A stretch of DNA of 64,000 bases from Pedobacter sp. Leaf41 (GTDB taxonomy: Bacteria > Bacteroidota > Bacteroidia > Sphingobacteriales > Sphingobacteriaceae). Location of the stretch: NCBI RefSeq assembly GCF_001422545.1, contig NZ_LMLE01000007.1, forward strand, positions 248,001 to 312,000. Reading direction: 5' to 3'. A program made the position numbers and the translations under genes. This document shows, piece after piece, positions 11,382-19,291 of this stretch. A model generated the notes under the pieces. That model saw only the letters and a program-made list of their open reading frames with translations. It was not told where the DNA came from and searched no databases. Numbering within the stretch: the stretch's first letter is position 1; each line of letters opens with the position of its first letter.

Positions 11382-12149
11382 TTAACCTTTAAACTTCTTC
11401 ATAAACTCACTCACATTCTCTTCGATATCCCCATTCTCGATAGCTTTCACAAAGGCAGTGCCGATTATTGCCCCATTTGCATAAGAACAGGCTTTATCAA
11501 AAGTTTGCTTATCGCTAATACCAAATCCGATCATAGTTGGATTTTTTAAATTCATGTTTTTAATCCTGCTAAAGTAATTTTCCGTGGTATCGCCTACTTC
11601 AAGATTTTTACCCGTCGTTGCTGACGAAGAAAGCAGATAAATGAACCCGTTTGTTAAGCCATCAATTTTATGAATACGCTCATCAGCAGTTTGTGGAGTA
11701 ATCAGAAATACATTGCTCAGATTGTGTTCTTCGAAACAGCCTTTGTAAAATTCTTCGTATTCTACCATGGGCAAATCGGGTACAATGCAACCATCTACTC
11801 CTACTTCAGCACAAGCTTTACAAAAGTTCTCTACACCGAATTGCAAAACAGGATTTACATAACCCATTAACAAAACAGGAATAGTCACGTTCTTACGCAA
11901 ATCCTTAAGTTGCTCAAACAGTAGCTTCAAGTTCATCCCTTGATCTAGCGACTTTTTACTACTGGCCTGAATTACCGGACCATCAGCAACAGGATCTGAA
12001 TACGGGAATCCAATCTCTAGCATATCAGCACCAGATTTTTCTAAAGCTTCAGCAATTTGAATCGTATCGCCAATATTTGGAAAACCAGCGGTATAATAAA
12101 TTGACAATATATTTTTTTTCTCTTCGAAGAGTTGTTTGATTCTGTTCAT
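11382..12149 (-). CDS. trpA: Tryptophan synthase alpha chain
   Basis: Cleaves indole-3-glycerol phosphate to indole and glyceraldehyde 3-phosphate, passing indole to TrpB. TIM barrel of 255 residues. The catalytic Glu is in MLEIGFPYSDPVADGPVIQ, which also carries the catalytic Asp; the phosphate-binding loop GFGISDKQTF is present near 210. ATG at 12147-12149 (MNRIKQLFEEKK) was chosen; the frame can be read from a TTG three codons upstream. Last gene of the trpDFBA cluster, 109 bases after trpB; that gap holds a GTCATTGCGAGG-type repeat. Confidence 0.95.
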   Translation of the reverse strand: MNRIKQLFEEKKNILSIYYTAGFPNIGDTIQIAEALEKSGADMLEIGFPYSDPVADGPVIQASSKKSLDQGMNLKLLFEQLKDLRKNVTIPVLLMGYVNPVLQFGVENFCKACAEVGVDGCIVPDLPMVEYEEFYKGCFEEHNLSNVFLITPQTADERIHKIDGLTNGFIYLLSSSATTGKNLEVGDTTENYFSRIKNMNLKNPTMIGFGISDKQTFDKACSYANGAIIGTAFVKAIENGDIEENVSEFMKKFKG

Positions 12150-12163
12150 TGTTTTCAACTTTT

Positions 12164-12258: not shown

Positions 12259-13440
12259 TTATAATTTAAAATATTTAATGTAAGTATCTAAGTCCTTATC
12301 GCCCCGGCCCGACAAACAAACCACCACATTTTCGCCACCTTTAAATTCCATTTTCTCTAAATAGGCCAAAGCATGGGCACTCTCAATAGCCGGAATGATG
12401 CCTTCCAATTGTGTTAGTAATAAGCCAGCATCCAAACTTTCCTCATCAGTGATGGAGACGTATTTCCCGCGACCAGTTTTGAATAAATGGGCATGTTGTG
12501 GACCGATACCTGGATAATCCAAACCAGCAGAAACCGAATGTGGCTCCACCACCTGGCCATCATCTGTTTGCATTAAAATACTCCGGCTTCCATGTAAAAC
12601 TCCTTCTTTCCCGAGATAGGTTGTTGCTGCAGAAAAACCGCTTGAAACACCTTTTCCAGCCGCTTCAACGGCAATTAATTTCACATTTTCATCATCCATA
12701 AAATGATAAAACATCCCCATTGCATTACTTCCACCACCAACACAAGCCAAAACATAATCTGGTTGATCATTTCCGGTTTGCTCAATTAACTGTTTTTTAG
12801 TTTCCTCAGAGATAATAGACTGGAAAATGGCAACCATATCCGGGTAAGGATGTGGCCCAACCACCGAGCCAATGATGTAATGGGTATCAACCGGATTATT
12901 GATCCAGTCTCGCATGGCTTCATTAGTAGCATCTTTAAGTGTCTTACTTCCAGAACTTGCCGGTACTACCTTAGCGCCCAACATTTTCATCCGGGCAACG
13001 TTTGGTGCCTGACGTTCGATATCGACTTCGCCCATATAAATTACACATTCCAAATTGCGCAGGGCACATACAGTAGCCGTTGCAACGCCATGCTGACCAG
13101 CACCTGTTTCGGCGATGATTCGCTTCTTTCCAAGCTTTTCGGCCAGTAAAATTTGACCAATGGTGTTGTTGATTTTGTGTGCACCAGTATGATTCAGGTC
13201 TTCTCTTTTTAAGAAAATATTCGCCCCATATCTTGCTGATAAACGATTTGCCAAATACAATGGTGACGGGCGACCCACATAATCCTTCATAAGTTGATGA
13301 AATTCCTTTTGAAAATCGGCATCATCGATAATTTTCAAGTAGTTTTGACGCAATTCTTCCACGTTTGGATAGAGCATTTCCGGAATGTATGCTCCACCAA
13401 AATCTCCGTAATATCCTTTTTCGTTTACTTTGTATTTCAT
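12259..13440 (-). CDS. trpB: Tryptophan synthase beta chain
   Basis: PLP enzyme that condenses indole with serine to give tryptophan. The PLP lysine is in HTGAHKINN, the catalytic Glu in [12 protein letters not shown], the phosphate-binding loop is GGGSNAMG, and the C-terminal CLSGRGDKD is intact. Length 393, usual for TrpB1. The ATG at 13438-13440 ([16 protein letters not shown]) was used; an in-frame TTG five codons earlier is unlikely. Separated from trpF by 335 bases that contain a dispersed repeat rather than a trpC gene. Confidence 0.96.
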
Positions 13441-13460
13441 AATATCTTTAATCAATATTG

Positions 13461-13775: not shown

Positions 13776-14411
13776 CTAATGGCCGAGTTTTACAAAAAAC
13801 TCTCCAATCTTCTGTACATCCTTAACTCCTGCCTCAATCTCAAACCGACTATTAATATCTAAAGCATATAATCTCGAATCCTCAATTTTTGATATCGCTG
13901 CTGCATGTTCTAAATCTATTCCTCCACTTAAAAAATAAGGCTTATTTAACTTATAATTCTCCAAAATCTTCCAATCGAAAGTTTTCCCTGAACCACCATG
14001 CGCTTTTGTTTTTGTATCGAATAAAAAGAAATCGACTACATCTTCATAAACATTCAAAACAGAAAAATCAAACTCTTCCTCTACACCGAAAGCTTTAATT
14101 ACTTCCAAACTATTAAATGACTCTTTCAGTTCGGCACAGTATTTAGCTGATTCATTGCCATGTAACTGAACAGCTTTTAACTGATAAAGATTTACTTTTT
14201 TCTTAACAATTTCCAGTTCTTCGTTTACAAAAACGCCAACAGTATTAATTTGAGGAGGCACATATTTTATCAATTCGGCAGATACATCAGAAATAAATCT
14301 CGGCGACTGCTCATAAAATATGAAGCCCAAATAATCTGGTTGTAGTGCAGCGACAGAAGCAATGTTCGCTGCAAACTTCATCCCGCAAACCTTTAGCTTT
14401 AAACTTCTCAT
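13776..14411 (-). CDS. trpF: Phosphoribosylanthranilate isomerase
   Basis: Amadori rearrangement step of tryptophan synthesis. The catalytic Cys is in LKVCGMKFAAN, and the catalytic Asp in FLFDTKTKAHGGSGKTFDW, which also carries the GGSGKTF phosphate motif; FLSGGID is the second phosphate loop. Length 211, single-domain form (not fused to TrpC). Its start overlaps the trpD stop by one base, so the two are co-translated. Confidence 0.94.
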   Translation of the reverse strand: MRSLKLKVCGMKFAANIASVAALQPDYLGFIFYEQSPRFISDVSAELIKYVPPQINTVGVFVNEELEIVKKKVNLYQLKAVQLHGNESAKYCAELKESFNSLEVIKAFGVEEEFDFSVLNVYEDVVDFFLFDTKTKAHGGSGKTFDWKILENYKLNKPYFLSGGIDLEHAAAISKIEDSRLYALDINSRFEIEAGVKDVQKIGEFFVKLGH

Positions 14412-15397
14412 CAGGCTACTAGTTTTTTAAAACTTTCCAAAGCCTTTTTGCTCAACAATGATTCTTCGGCTTCGTAAAAACAATCTGCAAAGCTGGCGGT
14501 TGGTTTGATTGTTTTGATGGCTAATGCCGAATTACAGAGCACCACATTATTTTGTACATCAGTAGCCTCACCATTTAGTACATTCATAAATATTTTTGCA
14601 GATGATTCTACCGTATCTCCACCCTTTATGTCATTTACTGCAACCTTTTCAAAACCCATCTCGTTTAATGTCAAAATACTTTCACCTTTGTTATTGAAAG
14701 TTTTCACATCGCAGGTGAGCGAGATCTCGTCATATCCCTCAAGCGCATGCACAATTGTGTAATTTTTGGTAGTATCCTGATATAAATAATTATACAAACG
14801 GGCGAGTTCCAAACTAAAAACCCCAACCATTTGATATTTGGGTTGTGATGGATTAACCATTGGCCCCAGCATATTAAAGAAGGTTTTGATGCCCAAATCT
14901 TTCCGTATCGGTGCCACAATCTTCATTGCTGGATTAAATAAAGGAGCGTGTAAAAAACATATTCCAGCGGCATCAAGATTTCGTTTCAAAATATCCTGAT
15001 TATTGGTGAAATTATAGCCCAAATATTCCATTACGTTTGATGAACCACAACCTGAAGAAACGCCATAATTACCATGTTTTGCTACTTTATGCCCCGCACC
15101 AGCTACCACAAAAGAGGAAAGCGTAGAAATGTTAAAGGTATCTTTTCCATCTCCACCGGTACCGCAAAGATCAATTAATTCATATTCAGAAAAATCTGTT
15201 TTAATACCCAAATCCAACATGGCATCACGGAAACCCTGAAGTTCATCAACCGTGATATTACGCATGGCATAAGCAGTAATAAAAGCGGCAATTTGCGAAG
15301 AATTAAATTCACCTTGTGTAATGGAAATGAGTATATTTTTTGCCTCTTCCCTACTGAAACTTTTATTGTCGAATAAATGATTTAAGATCTTTTTCAT
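14411..15397 (-). CDS. trpD: Anthranilate phosphoribosyltransferase
   Basis: Transfers the phosphoribosyl group of PRPP to anthranilate. The PRPP-binding loop DLCGTGGDGKDTFNISTLSS, the KHGNYGVSSGCGSSNVMEYLG motif and the metal-binding DE-type region near SLTCDV are visible. Length 328, the stand-alone form without a TrpG domain. First structural gene of the cluster; transcription from the leader promoter would pass an attenuator-like terminator and a GTCATTCTGAAC repeat before reaching it. Confidence 0.95.
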   Translation of the reverse strand: MKKILNHLFDNKSFSREEAKNILISITQGEFNSSQIAAFITAYAMRNITVDELQGFRDAMLDLGIKTDFSEYELIDLCGTGGDGKDTFNISTLSSFVVAGAGHKVAKHGNYGVSSGCGSSNVMEYLGYNFTNNQDILKRNLDAAGICFLHAPLFNPAMKIVAPIRKDLGIKTFFNMLGPMVNPSQPKYQMVGVFSLELARLYNYLYQDTTKNYTIVHALEGYDEISLTCDVKTFNNKGESILTLNEMGFEKVAVNDIKGGDTVESSAKIFMNVLNGEATDVQNNVVLCNSALAIKTIKPTASFADCFYEAEESLLSKKALESFKKLVA

Positions 15398-15417
15398 TTT
15401 TTATTTTTTCCCTCGTT

Positions 15418-15480
15418 CGTCATTCTGAACTTGGTTCAGAATCTTTTTTTATCAGATGCTGAAATAAACTCAGCATGACG
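15418..15480. repeat. GTCATTCTGAAC dispersed hairpin repeat in the trp leader
   Basis: Edges CGTCATTCTGAAC and CTCAGCATGACG. Contains a hairpin TTCTGAAC/GTTCAGAA (15423-15430, 15434-15441). It sits between the leader terminator and trpD and belongs to the same broad class as the GTCATTGCGAGG repeats. Confidence 0.55.
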
Positions 15481-15489
15481 AAAGCCCAT

Positions 15490-15522
15490 AAAAAAAGGAT
15501 TGCTTTTTGGGCAATCCTTTTT
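15490..15522 (-). terminator. Leader terminator (attenuator) of the trp cluster
   Basis: On the minus strand a 12-bp perfect stem AAAAAGGATTGC / GCAATCCTTTTT (15511-15522 and 15492-15503) with a 7-base loop, followed by Ts. It lies 44 bases after the leader peptide stop and about 93 bases before trpD. Because the next gene upstream is on the other strand, no minus-strand gene ends here; a terminator placed inside the leader is best explained as an attenuator. Confidence 0.8.
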
Positions 15523-15565
15523 ATCGTTTATAAAATATTTTAAAATATATAACAACAGAATTTGC

Positions 15566-15619
15566 CTAACGAATTTCGTTATGCCACCACCAATTGTTAT
15601 TTAAGTTTTTAATTATCAT
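15566..15619 (-). CDS. trpL: trp operon leader peptide with three tandem Trp codons
   Basis: A 17-residue ORF, MIIKNLNNNWWWHNEIR, with ATG at 15617-15619 and TAG at 15566-15568. The three TGG codons are at 15584-15592. Directly after them an AACGA/TCGTT hairpin (15568-15580) spans the stop codon, and the next bases, GGCAA on the RNA (15562-15566), can pair with UUGCC in the first arm of the terminator (15510-15514), offering an antiterminator. This is the arrangement of classical ribosome-mediated attenuation: stalling at Trp codons would favour read-through into trpD. An in-frame longer reading upstream is not needed. Peptide and hairpins are seen; the mechanism is inferred. Confidence 0.85.
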   Translation of the reverse strand: MIIKNLNNNWWWHNEIR

Positions 15620-15631
15620 GTTTATATAGAA

Positions 15632-15664
15632 CAAATATTGATATACTTTTTTATATTTCCAAAA
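15632..15664 (-). promoter_or_regulatory. Candidate promoter of the trp leader
   Basis: Minus strand: TTTTG (15660-15664), 20-base spacer, AATATTTG (15632-15639), one mismatch to TAnnTTTG. It places the start a few bases before the leader peptide ATG and lies back to back with the 5' end of the Kir channel gene. Confidence 0.4.
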
Positions 15665-15679
15665 CCTTTTTAACAATCT

Positions 15680-16627
15680 ATGGCATTTTTTAAGCGAAAA
15701 GTACAGTTTAATGATGATTTGGGTTTTGGCTCGAGCCCCGTAATCAAAAATCAACGCGTCCTAAATACCGATGGTACGCCGAATATTGAACGTACAGGTT
15801 TGCCCTGGTTTAAATTTGATGATACGTATACTCGGTTAGTTACCATGAGTTGGCCTCGTTTTTTTCTGGTGATACTCATTGCCTATCTTATTGTAAATAC
15901 TTTATTCGCTGTTGCTTACAACGTTATTGGAATCGAAAATTTGAATGGAGCAAATGGCAAAACCCTCCGCGATCAATTCTTTGATGCCTTCTTCTTTTCC
16001 GCACAAACCATTTCTACGGTCGGTTATGGACATATTTCTCCGCAAGGTTTTATTACCAGCGTTCTGGCTGCTTTCGAAAGTATGTTGGGTTTGTTGGCTT
16101 TCGCACTGGCTACCGGATTGCTTTACGGCCGTTTTAGTAGGCCTACTTCGAAAGTAACTTTTAGTAAAAAAATGGTTATCGCACCTTACCAAAACGGTCT
16201 AGGTTTAATGTGTCGGCTTGCCAACCTCAGAAAGAATTCTTTAATAGATGTAGAAGCGCAAATGTTTATGACTTTTAATGAAACCGTTGATGGAAAACTC
16301 AAACGTAGCTTTTATCCATTAGAACTGGAGCGCAGTAAAATTGCTTTTCTTTCGTTGAACTGGACTTTGGTACATCCTATAAATGAAGACAGCCCCATTT
16401 TTGAAAAAAAATTAGATGAACTAAAACTAGCCGAAGTGGAAATTTTTGTGATTTTAAGAGCATTCGACGATACTTTTGCGCAAACAATCCATACCCGTAC
16501 CAGCTATCAGGATGAAGACATTGAATGGAATGCAAAATTTAAGGTTATGCATTACCACAATGATGCCGGTAAAACGGTTATGGATTACAGCTTATTTGAT
16601 CACATGGAAAAAATAATGGCTGATTGA
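15680..16627 (+). CDS. Inward-rectifier potassium channel (KirBac type)
   Basis: A 315-residue potassium channel. The first membrane helix is about 55-75 (FFLVILIAYLIVNTLFAVAY), the pore helix and selectivity filter are AQTISTVGYGHI near 105-118, and the second helix is about 130-150 (SMLGLLAFALATGLLYGRF). The C-terminal 160 residues form the cytoplasmic IRK beta-sandwich (VDGKLKRSFYPLELER, IFVILRAFDDTFAQTIHTRTSY). The filter TVGYG is intact. It diverges from the trp leader region; no obvious functional link to tryptophan genes. Confidence 0.92.
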   Translation: MAFFKRKVQFNDDLGFGSSPVIKNQRVLNTDGTPNIERTGLPWFKFDDTYTRLVTMSWPRFFLVILIAYLIVNTLFAVAYNVIGIENLNGANGKTLRDQFFDAFFFSAQTISTVGYGHISPQGFITSVLAAFESMLGLLAFALATGLLYGRFSRPTSKVTFSKKMVIAPYQNGLGLMCRLANLRKNSLIDVEAQMFMTFNETVDGKLKRSFYPLELERSKIAFLSLNWTLVHPINEDSPIFEKKLDELKLAEVEIFVILRAFDDTFAQTIHTRTSYQDEDIEWNAKFKVMHYHNDAGKTVMDYSLFDHMEKIMAD

Positions 16628-17826: not shown

Positions 17827-19215
17827 ATGCAGAGTTACTCAGAATTTCTCGATCTAAGCGTTGGCTTTCCACAAGAAGGCTTTGATGTGATAGATGATGA
17901 ATTATATTTTCAGGATTTAAACCTGATGGAAATGATTGAAACTTACGGTACTCCCCTACGTTTCACCTACTTACCGATGGTAACTAAGAAGATTCAGCAA
18001 GCGAAAATTCTTTTCCAAACTGCCATTTTAAAAAACAATTATCGTGGTGACTATAAGTATTGCTACTGTACAAAAAGTTCGCATTTCCGCCACATTGTAG
18101 AGGAGGCATTGAAGAATAATATTCACCTTGAAACTTCATCTGCATTTGATATGCCTATGGTTGATGCTTTGGAGAAAAAAGGTCATTTAACTAAGGATAC
18201 AACCATTATTTGCAACGGTTTTAAAACCTACCAGTACAAGCAATATATTATTGATATGTTGCATGATGGTTATACCAATATCATCCCCGTTTTAGATAAT
18301 AAGGAGGAATTTAACCTATTTGATGATGAGGTTGACATTGATACGCCATGTAATCTTGGTATCCGTATCGCAGCTGAAGAGCAGCCTGATTCGCAGTTTT
18401 ATACTTCGCGTTTAGGGGTGCGGATGGAAGATATTATCGATTTTTATAACAACAAAATCGTTCATAATCCTAATTTCCGCGTGAAGTTGTTGCACTTTTT
18501 CATTAATTCTGGTATCACGGATTCGCCATATTATTGGAACGAATTAGAGAAATACGTAACGCTTTATTGTAAGTTTAAAAAGATTAATCCTGATTTAGAT
18601 ACCCTGGATATTGGTGGCGGTATGCCATTTAAAGATTCATTGGTTTTCGATTTCGATTACGAGTACATGGTAAACGAAATTGTAAAAAGGATTAAAGAAA
18701 TTTGTGCCATTCATGATGTGATGGAACCAGATATTATTACTGAATTTGGTAAATACACGGTTGCAGAAGCATCAGGAATTTTATACAAAGTTTTAGGTAG
18801 AAAACAACAAAATGATCGTGAGCGCTGGTTGATGTTGGATGGTTCTTTTATTACCAATTTACCGGATGTTTGGGCATTGAATCAAAAATACATTTTGCTT
18901 CCAATTAACAACTGGGATGCTGAATATGAGCGTGTTAACTTAGGCGGCATCACTTGCGACGGACAGGATTATTATAATCAGGAGGCGCACATGAACAGTG
19001 TATTCATGCCTAAAACACGTAAAGTGCAATACCTTGGTTTCTTTCACACCGGAGCTTATCAAGAGGTATTAAGCGGTTACGGCGGTATACATCATTGTTT
19101 GTTGCCTAGTCCGAAACATGTGCTTATTCGCAGAAACCGCGATGAAAGCTTCAACTTCGAAGTTTTTGGTGAAGAACAGAATAGCAAGCAGGTTTTGAAA
19201 ATATTGGGTTATTAA
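17827..19215 (+). CDS. speA: Biosynthetic arginine decarboxylase, short Bacteroidota type
   Basis: PLP-dependent decarboxylase of the alanine-racemase-fold family, making agmatine for polyamine synthesis. The PLP lysine is in YKYCYCTKSSHF near residue 80, the glycine-rich phosphate loop is LDIGGGMPF near 260, and the ITCDGQDYY motif near 380 supplies the second-protomer catalytic Cys-Asp. Length is 462 against about 650 in E. coli SpeA: the helical insertion and C-terminal extension of the long form are missing. A lysine or diaminopimelate decarboxylase was considered, but the overall pattern fits the Bacteroidota arginine enzyme better. Followed by a strong terminator. Confidence 0.85.
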   Translation: MQSYSEFLDLSVGFPQEGFDVIDDELYFQDLNLMEMIETYGTPLRFTYLPMVTKKIQQAKILFQTAILKNNYRGDYKYCYCTKSSHFRHIVEEALKNNIHLETSSAFDMPMVDALEKKGHLTKDTTIICNGFKTYQYKQYIIDMLHDGYTNIIPVLDNKEEFNLFDDEVDIDTPCNLGIRIAAEEQPDSQFYTSRLGVRMEDIIDFYNNKIVHNPNFRVKLLHFFINSGITDSPYYWNELEKYVTLYCKFKKINPDLDTLDIGGGMPFKDSLVFDFDYEYMVNEIVKRIKEICAIHDVMEPDIITEFGKYTVAEASGILYKVLGRKQQNDRERWLMLDGSFITNLPDVWALNQKYILLPINNWDAEYERVNLGGITCDGQDYYNQEAHMNSVFMPKTRKVQYLGFFHTGAYQEVLSGYGGIHHCLLPSPKHVLIRRNRDESFNFEVFGEEQNSKQVLKILGY

Positions 19216-19257
19216 ATAGGTTGCCTGTTTCGGGTTATAAATCTTAAATTCATAATT

Positions 19258-19291
19258 AAAACTCGAAGTAAATATGCTTCGAGTTTTTTTA
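19258..19291 (+). terminator. speA terminator
   Basis: ACTCGAAG (19261-19268) pairs with CTTCGAGT (19277-19284), followed by seven Ts; 45 bases after the speA stop. Confidence 0.85.

Follow-up and report, generated by a model that had tools for sequence, protein, structure and literature searches.

In the trpL leader of enterobacteria, tandem Trp codons and a stalled-ribosome logic set an antiterminator against a terminator. Trp leaders with three consecutive Trp codons (WWW) are also known from Bacteroidota: the Bacteroid-trp family (RF01692) was described in 2010 (PMC2864571), such a leader has been noted ahead of the F. psychrophilum trp operon (PMC6414381), and clues of leader-peptide attenuation before amino-acid operons come from the same species (PMC9723704). 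In Sinorhizobium meliloti, the trp leader starts at AUG, and the RNA of the attenuator, which sits at trpE(G), acts on trpDC in trans (PMC7298713). An attenuator of the kind considered here is already known in Bacteroidota; less expected is a second, unlike Trp-codon leader at a separate trpE. Our search of the open-licence literature for Pedobacter, leader peptide and attenuation together found no report.

We analysed a 64,000-nucleotide stretch of the genome of Pedobacter sp. Leaf41 (contig NZ_LMLE01000007.1, positions 248,001 to 312,000; hereafter the window), in which an earlier note, made from the sequence alone, had proposed a trp attenuator upstream of trpD and had named enterobacteria as its precedent; within the phylum, RF01692 had already been published. 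Our main reading, to which we assign a probability of about 0.9, is that the leader is a ribosome-mediated transcription attenuator of trpDFBA, whose genes would be read only when tryptophan is short. It builds on sequence, conservation, compensatory pairing and masked folding, and from these we infer a promoter, ribosome stalling, termination and a response to tryptophan.

Architecture of the trpD leader

The elements of the leader lie on the minus strand between a divergent potassium-channel gene and trpD (Table 1). The earlier note had listed a 17-codon ORF with three TGG codons, a hairpin over its stop codon and a 12-bp terminator stem with a T-run upstream of trpD, all of which we recovered. 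It had also proposed a GGCAA:UUGCC antiterminator; this pairing is real but was understated, as it belongs to a 9-bp helix with one bulged A, in which GGCAA(A)UUCU of segment 2 (GGCAAAUUCU in the window) joins AGGAUUGCC of segment 3 at -8.4 kcal/mol. Beyond that list, we found the outer helix P2, a -33/-7 promoter-like pair, the conservation of the leader and a second leader at trpE.

Table 1. Coordinates of the trpD leader, its surroundings and the trpE leader (positions are those of the window, except in the last row).
Feature	Position	Strand	Remarks
-33-like element TTTTGG (predicted promoter)	15659..15664	-	compared with the TTTG/TAnnTTTG consensus (PMC6847099)
-7-like element AATATTTG (predicted promoter)	15632..15639	-	7/8 positions of TAnnTTTG; predicted RNA start ~15627, leader ~8 nt
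trpD leader ORF, MIIKNLNNNWWWHNEIR followed by stop	15566..15619	-	17 codons; kept in 131/131 Pedobacter regions
Outer helix P2, 5' arm	15593..15600	-	fold; native versus permuted arms, z -6.2
Three consecutive Trp codons TGG (WWW)	15584..15592	-	invariant in alignment A1
Stop-codon hairpin P1, UAACGA-AAU-UCGUUA	15567..15581	-	permutation z -7.9
Segment 2, antiterminator 5' strand	15557..15566	-	first base is the last base of the stop codon; z -4.6
Outer helix P2, 3' arm	15549..15556	-	fold and permutation test
Segment 3, common to antiterminator and terminator	15510..15518	-	sequence and duplex comparison
Terminator hairpin with U-run (segments 3 and 4)	15490..15522	-	12-bp stem; -13.4 kcal/mol; z -5.4
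trpD, first gene under the predicted regulation	14411..15397	-	Pfam; trpD model in own genome
trpF	13776..14411	-	Pfam PRAI
trpB	12259..13455	-	Pfam PALP; trpB name by eye from position and sequence
trpA	11382..12158	-	Pfam Trp_syntA
Inward-rectifier potassium-channel gene, divergent upstream neighbour	15680..16627	+	Pfam
trpE leader, MINNIHTWLWQSNSKQNCAGCV followed by stop, with GC-rich terminator (L033)	contig C9, start 237690	-	in front of trpE

The window has 1040 frames of 8-40 codons that start with ATG, counting nested starts, and the leader ORF alone among them has a WWW run. The string TGGTGGTGG itself occurs twice in the window against 0.23 expected, with at least two copies in 2 of 100 shuffles. 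A chance origin of the run was ruled out on the frame count together with the conservation described below.

The terminator has no other gene to serve, as the earlier note had held: the neighbouring channel gene is encoded on the plus strand and points away from the leader, and no plus-strand ORF ends between trpD and this gene among the listed window ORFs of at least 80 aa. A consensus terminator scan reported the palindrome of the leader terminator on the plus strand only, probably because the U-run on the minus strand pairs with an A-run and is likely to fail the rule of the scan. The terminator is separated by 92 bases from trpD, which is followed by trpF, trpB and trpA. The claim that the leader controls trpDFBA is supported as far as the attenuator reading goes, but these genes make up only part of the pathway, since trpE and trpC lie elsewhere and trpE has a leader of its own.

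Conservation in Pedobacter and the Sphingobacteriaceae

TrpD is present in 142 of 145 Pedobacter genomes, and 78 of the 80 nearest TrpD relatives kept carry Pedobacter titles. The sample comprised 131 trpD upstream regions, 100 of them located by the position of trpD alone, 30 via a match to RF01692 and one being that of the window; the 11 trpD-bearing genomes outside it (G092, G106, G068, G122, G107, G041, G078, G046, G136, G034 and G121) all have an RF01692 match at E <= 1. Every one of the 131 regions holds exactly one ATG ORF through TGGTGGTGG, 15-19 codons long (17 codons in 122) and closed by TAG (100), TGA (27) or TAA (4), and in every one a terminator-like hairpin follows 36-47 nt past the stop. 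A hairpin score of at least 17 within 90 nt of the stop was reached by 131/131 real stretches versus 0/131 base-shuffled stretches of 90 nt. The earlier note had suggested aligning the leaders of relatives, and had named relatives that keep the terminator without the ORF or its Trp codons as evidence against the attenuator: the Trp codons proved conserved, compensatory pairing was seen in the hairpin arms, and such relatives numbered zero among the 131 Pedobacter regions and 16 loci of six other genera.

We then built a model, R1, from 42 trpD-leader representatives, using the terminator pairs only. Within the family, R1 has matches at E <= 0.01 in 378 of 399 genomes, spread over 21 of 25 genera; because weak matches may be terminators alone, we also give the count at E <= 1e-5, which is 372 of 399 (our own count from the printed rows). 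Of the 20 family genomes listed without a match, 17 are 3.0 Mb or less. The 16 loci of the six other genera, fetched from among the stronger matches, all have a WWW ORF ahead of trpD. How many codons precede WWW differs from locus to locus without the frame ever being closed, an indication that the leader is translated. Further R1 matches in the genome of Leaf41 itself have E values of 0.003-0.8; one (L383) is the leader terminator again, read from the opposite strand, and a leader ORF with tandem Trp codons is absent from the five inspected (L382, L384-L387).

Compensatory pairing of the arms

RNAalifold on a MAFFT alignment recovered nothing beyond the terminator and 3 bp of pairing inside the Trp codons; P1, P2 and the antiterminator were missed, partly because P1 has two loop sizes. 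We therefore substituted an alignment-free permutation test, in which the duplex energies of native arms were compared with those of permuted arms across the 42 representatives (5000 permutations). For P1, P2, the terminator and the antiterminator alike, none of the 5000 permutations was as low as the native pairing (z scores in Table 1). The test treats the representatives as independent and ignores their relatedness; since this is its weak point, control pairs were added, and 11 pairs of arms not meant to pair gave z of -2.4 to +2.2, with reversed partners at -0.8 to -3.1.

The changes themselves can be followed in the sequences of the arms. The TGG codons are invariant while the hairpin arms that flank them vary together; those of the stop-codon hairpin change in concert (for example ACGC/GCGU, AUGC/GCAU and ACUC/GAGU), and the antiterminator arms, GGCAAAUUCU with AGGAUUGCC in the window, read GUAACCCU with AGGGUUGC in the other large clade and GUAACCU with AGGUUGC in a third form. 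By computation, the antiterminator and the terminator appear to be mutually exclusive structures, each of them conserved by pairing.

Ribosome-masked folding and the proposed mechanism

For the same 42 representatives, we folded the transcript up to segment 3 with the footprint of a ribosome (A site -15 to +13) held unpaired. The folding model leaves out kinetics and pseudoknots, and since P2 encloses segment 2, P2 and the antiterminator together would constitute a pseudoknot. With the A site on W1, W2 or W3, the antiterminator was favoured in 42/42 (means 0.99-1.00), versus 2/42 (mean 0.09) with the A site on the stop codon and 7/42 (mean 0.18) in the RNA free of ribosomes. Footprints reaching to +11 and +15 again gave 42/42 on the Trp codons, with 6/42 and 1/42, respectively, on the stop. 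When the model ribosome was moved codon by codon, the antiterminator was favoured in 42/42 at positions -2 to +4, counted in codons relative to the first Trp, then in 22/42 at +6, 5/40 at +7 and 1/40 at +8. Eight to three codons before the Trp run the means were 0.41-0.79, so that the codons preceding the run partly favour the antiterminator as well and the switch responds to more than the Trp codons. A coarser measure, applied to the 16 loci of other genera, gave antiterminator pairing in 16/16 on the Trp codons, 7/16 with no ribosome and 5/16 at the stop; for 29 of the 30 best RF01692 loci (L330 left out) the corresponding numbers were 29, 13 and 6. In these models it is the position of the ribosome that would decide between antiterminator and terminator.

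The mechanism that we propose runs as follows. RNA polymerase would start just ahead of the leader AUG. When charged tRNA-Trp is scarce, the ribosome would stall on one of the three Trp codons and cover the 5' arms of P1 and P2. Segment 2 could then pair with segment 3 while segment 4 has yet to be transcribed; this pairing would block the terminator and allow trpDFBA to be transcribed. When tryptophan is plentiful, the ribosome would reach the stop codon and cover segment 2, which begins in that very codon, whereupon segments 3 and 4 could form the terminator and transcription would end near 15490. If no ribosome is present, P2 would enclose segment 2 and favour termination in most relatives, and P1/P2 may possibly act as a pause hairpin as well. 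The suggestion that attenuation logic operates in this Bacteroidota genome is thereby supported from three sides: conservation, compensatory pairing and ribosome-masked folding.

The RNA of the window is less clear-cut in its default state, as the antiterminator reaches 0.52 without a ribosome, and default termination is not clear here. This even split between both forms, like the strength of the terminator (Table 1), would fit a simple early terminator, or else a small RNA that ends in a terminator, with the WWW ORF as a by-product of a conserved RNA. We regard this as very improbable: the Trp codons are invariant in frame although both flanking arms change, the length before WWW varies in the other genera and the frame stays open, and segment 2 covaries with segment 3. 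Control by an RNA- or DNA-binding regulator (a TRAP-like protein, a T-box or a promoter repressor) in place of leader translation seems to us just as remote, since a coding WWW leader would be superfluous for it, although such a regulator may contribute a further layer of control. T-boxes and other Rfam riboswitches were rejected as candidates: at gathering level the window has no Rfam match of any kind, and even with E relaxed to 10 a T-box is absent from the matches.

Relationship to known trp leaders

Against RF01692 the window scores 39.5 bits (E 0.0033), below the gathering cut-off of 49, and is hence not a member by that family's own criterion. The alignment nevertheless spans the whole model (positions 1-131 of 131) and includes a WWW leader ORF, and the location, with trpD directly downstream in a member of the Bacteroidota, agrees with the one required of the family. 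Pedobacter as a whole behaves alike, with 93 of 145 genomes matching at E <= 1 and 0/145 above the cut-off; in a sample of the phylum, 37 of 395 genomes pass it. The trpD leader shares with Bacteroid-trp the full-length alignment, the WWW leader ORF, the hairpin around the Trp codons, the terminator, the phylum and the place upstream of trp genes. It differs in preceding the trpD of a split pathway, whereas the top 30 RF01692 matches of the phylum sample stand, by eye, ahead of trpE-like (27) or trpB-like (3) genes. Also by eye, RF01692 matches of other families precede trpB-like genes at L305, L310 and L331.

The pairing partners seem to differ too. In RF01692 leaders of the Flavobacteriaceae type, the region of the stop codon seems capable of pairing with the loop and 3' side of the terminator (by eye, and in one fold, that of L306), whereas in Pedobacter it pairs with the 5' arm. 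In L306 and similar loci, UCGUGA at the stop codon could pair with UCACGA of the terminator loop (by eye and in the fold of L306), which would give the antiterminator another layout than in Pedobacter. We regard the trpD leader as a diverged variant that would work like Bacteroid-trp. It would extend trp attenuation past the curated reach of RF01692 to most of the sampled genomes of a whole family.

Like enterobacterial trpL, the trpD leader combines tandem Trp codons with a predicted stalled-ribosome logic and an antiterminator directed against a terminator, but its segment 2 starts within the stop codon and is enclosed by an extra outer helix. The enterobacterial family Trp_leader (RF00513) gave no match down to E = 10. 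A further difference is that no Shine-Dalgarno-based start is expected in Bacteroidota (PMC9976891).

A second leader in front of trpE

In the genome of Leaf41, a different contig carries trpE and trpC at a short distance from each other, and a Trp-codon leader with a GC-rich terminator stands in front of trpE (Table 1). An Rfam scan of this locus down to E = 1 returned no Trp leader family, only two unrelated weak matches. A W-x-W leader is present in all 90 trpE upstream regions examined, of 145 Pedobacter genomes, with a GTG start in G118, and 89 of the 90 show the terminator pattern; the exception, G119, matches our trpE-leader model R2 over its full length. At E <= 1e-5, R2 matches 69 of 251 genomes of the family, made up of 52 Pedobacter genomes and 17 that belong to four other genera; all six of those 17 loci that were fetched lie ahead of trpE and have Trp-rich leaders.

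Masked folding of 29 trpE-leader representatives favoured the antiterminator in 29/29 at the Trp codons, 4/29 with no ribosome and 9/29 at the stop, the last figure indicating that simple masking by a ribosome on the stop codon is not the whole story at trpE. By these models, the trpE leader would work by the same logic as the trpD leader, from which it is structurally unlike. Both halves of the split trp pathway carry a Trp-codon leader, and annotation would gain a sharper trpD-leader model in R1 and, in R2, a model of the second.

A split set of trp genes and a leader ORF that lies at the 5' end of the RNA or close to it (predicted in our case) are features shared with S. meliloti, which differs in having its attenuator at trpE(G) (PMC7298713), whereas here each half of the pathway has its own. 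The S. meliloti leader RNA, rnTrpL, is reported in PMC7298713 to act in trans on trpDC, and with the trp genes split here too, released leader RNA or peptide could act in trans besides the cis control. We think this unlikely. Each half of the pathway has a cis leader, so that action in trans is not needed, and the 3' part of the trpE leader is read in two frames in close relatives (ending in NELRWLRMNKI or CAGCV) whose RNA is nearly the same (L135-L164), which argues against a kept function of the peptide there.

Predicted transcript start

The -33/-7 consensus of Bacteroidota is TTTG/TAnnTTTG, with the G of the -7 box at position -5 (PMC6847099). A TTTG ends 5-13 nt before the AUG in 129 of 131 trpD leaders (the exceptions being 54 nt in G004 and 57 nt in G018; L090, L095) and 5-7 nt before the start codon in 89 of 90 trpE leaders (56 nt in G064; L222). 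From this spacing the RNA is predicted to begin about 1-9 nt before the start codon, or ~8 nt in the window, which would make both mRNAs almost leaderless. Leaders as short as this are a minority in the figures given for other members of the phylum: of the F. johnsoniae leaders that have a probable promoter, 87% are longer than 10 nt (PMC6847099), ~3.7% of the 5' UTRs of B. thetaiotaomicron are shorter than 10 nt (PMC7366714) and leaderless mRNAs make up 5.5% in F. psychrophilum (PMC9723704).

On balance we lean towards a wider picture, in which the Sphingobacteriaceae keep a split trp pathway under two separate attenuators of unlike structure, the one at trpD with WWW and the one at trpE with W-x-W or WW(W). 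In both cases the ribosomes, which in this phylum make no use of Shine-Dalgarno sequences, would begin on an mRNA with almost no leader (~1-9 nt). Leader translation would then set in as soon as RNA emerges from the polymerase, and the tryptophan level that opens one leader could differ from that of the other. In such compact leaders one could study how transcription and the translation of the leader keep step where ribosomes ignore Shine-Dalgarno sequences.

Two smaller features of the window deserve mention. Between the terminator and trpD lies a palindromic stretch (15413-15484); a complete copy of it is present in the genome, together with a match at 80% over 59 bases and three partial ones. 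Similar-looking insertions are seen between terminator and trpD in other species, and may account for the variable distance between the two. On the plus strand, positions 19238-19291, just 3' of the ORF at 17827-19215, match weakly (E 0.0006) the 3' part only of R2, and are probably a plain terminator.
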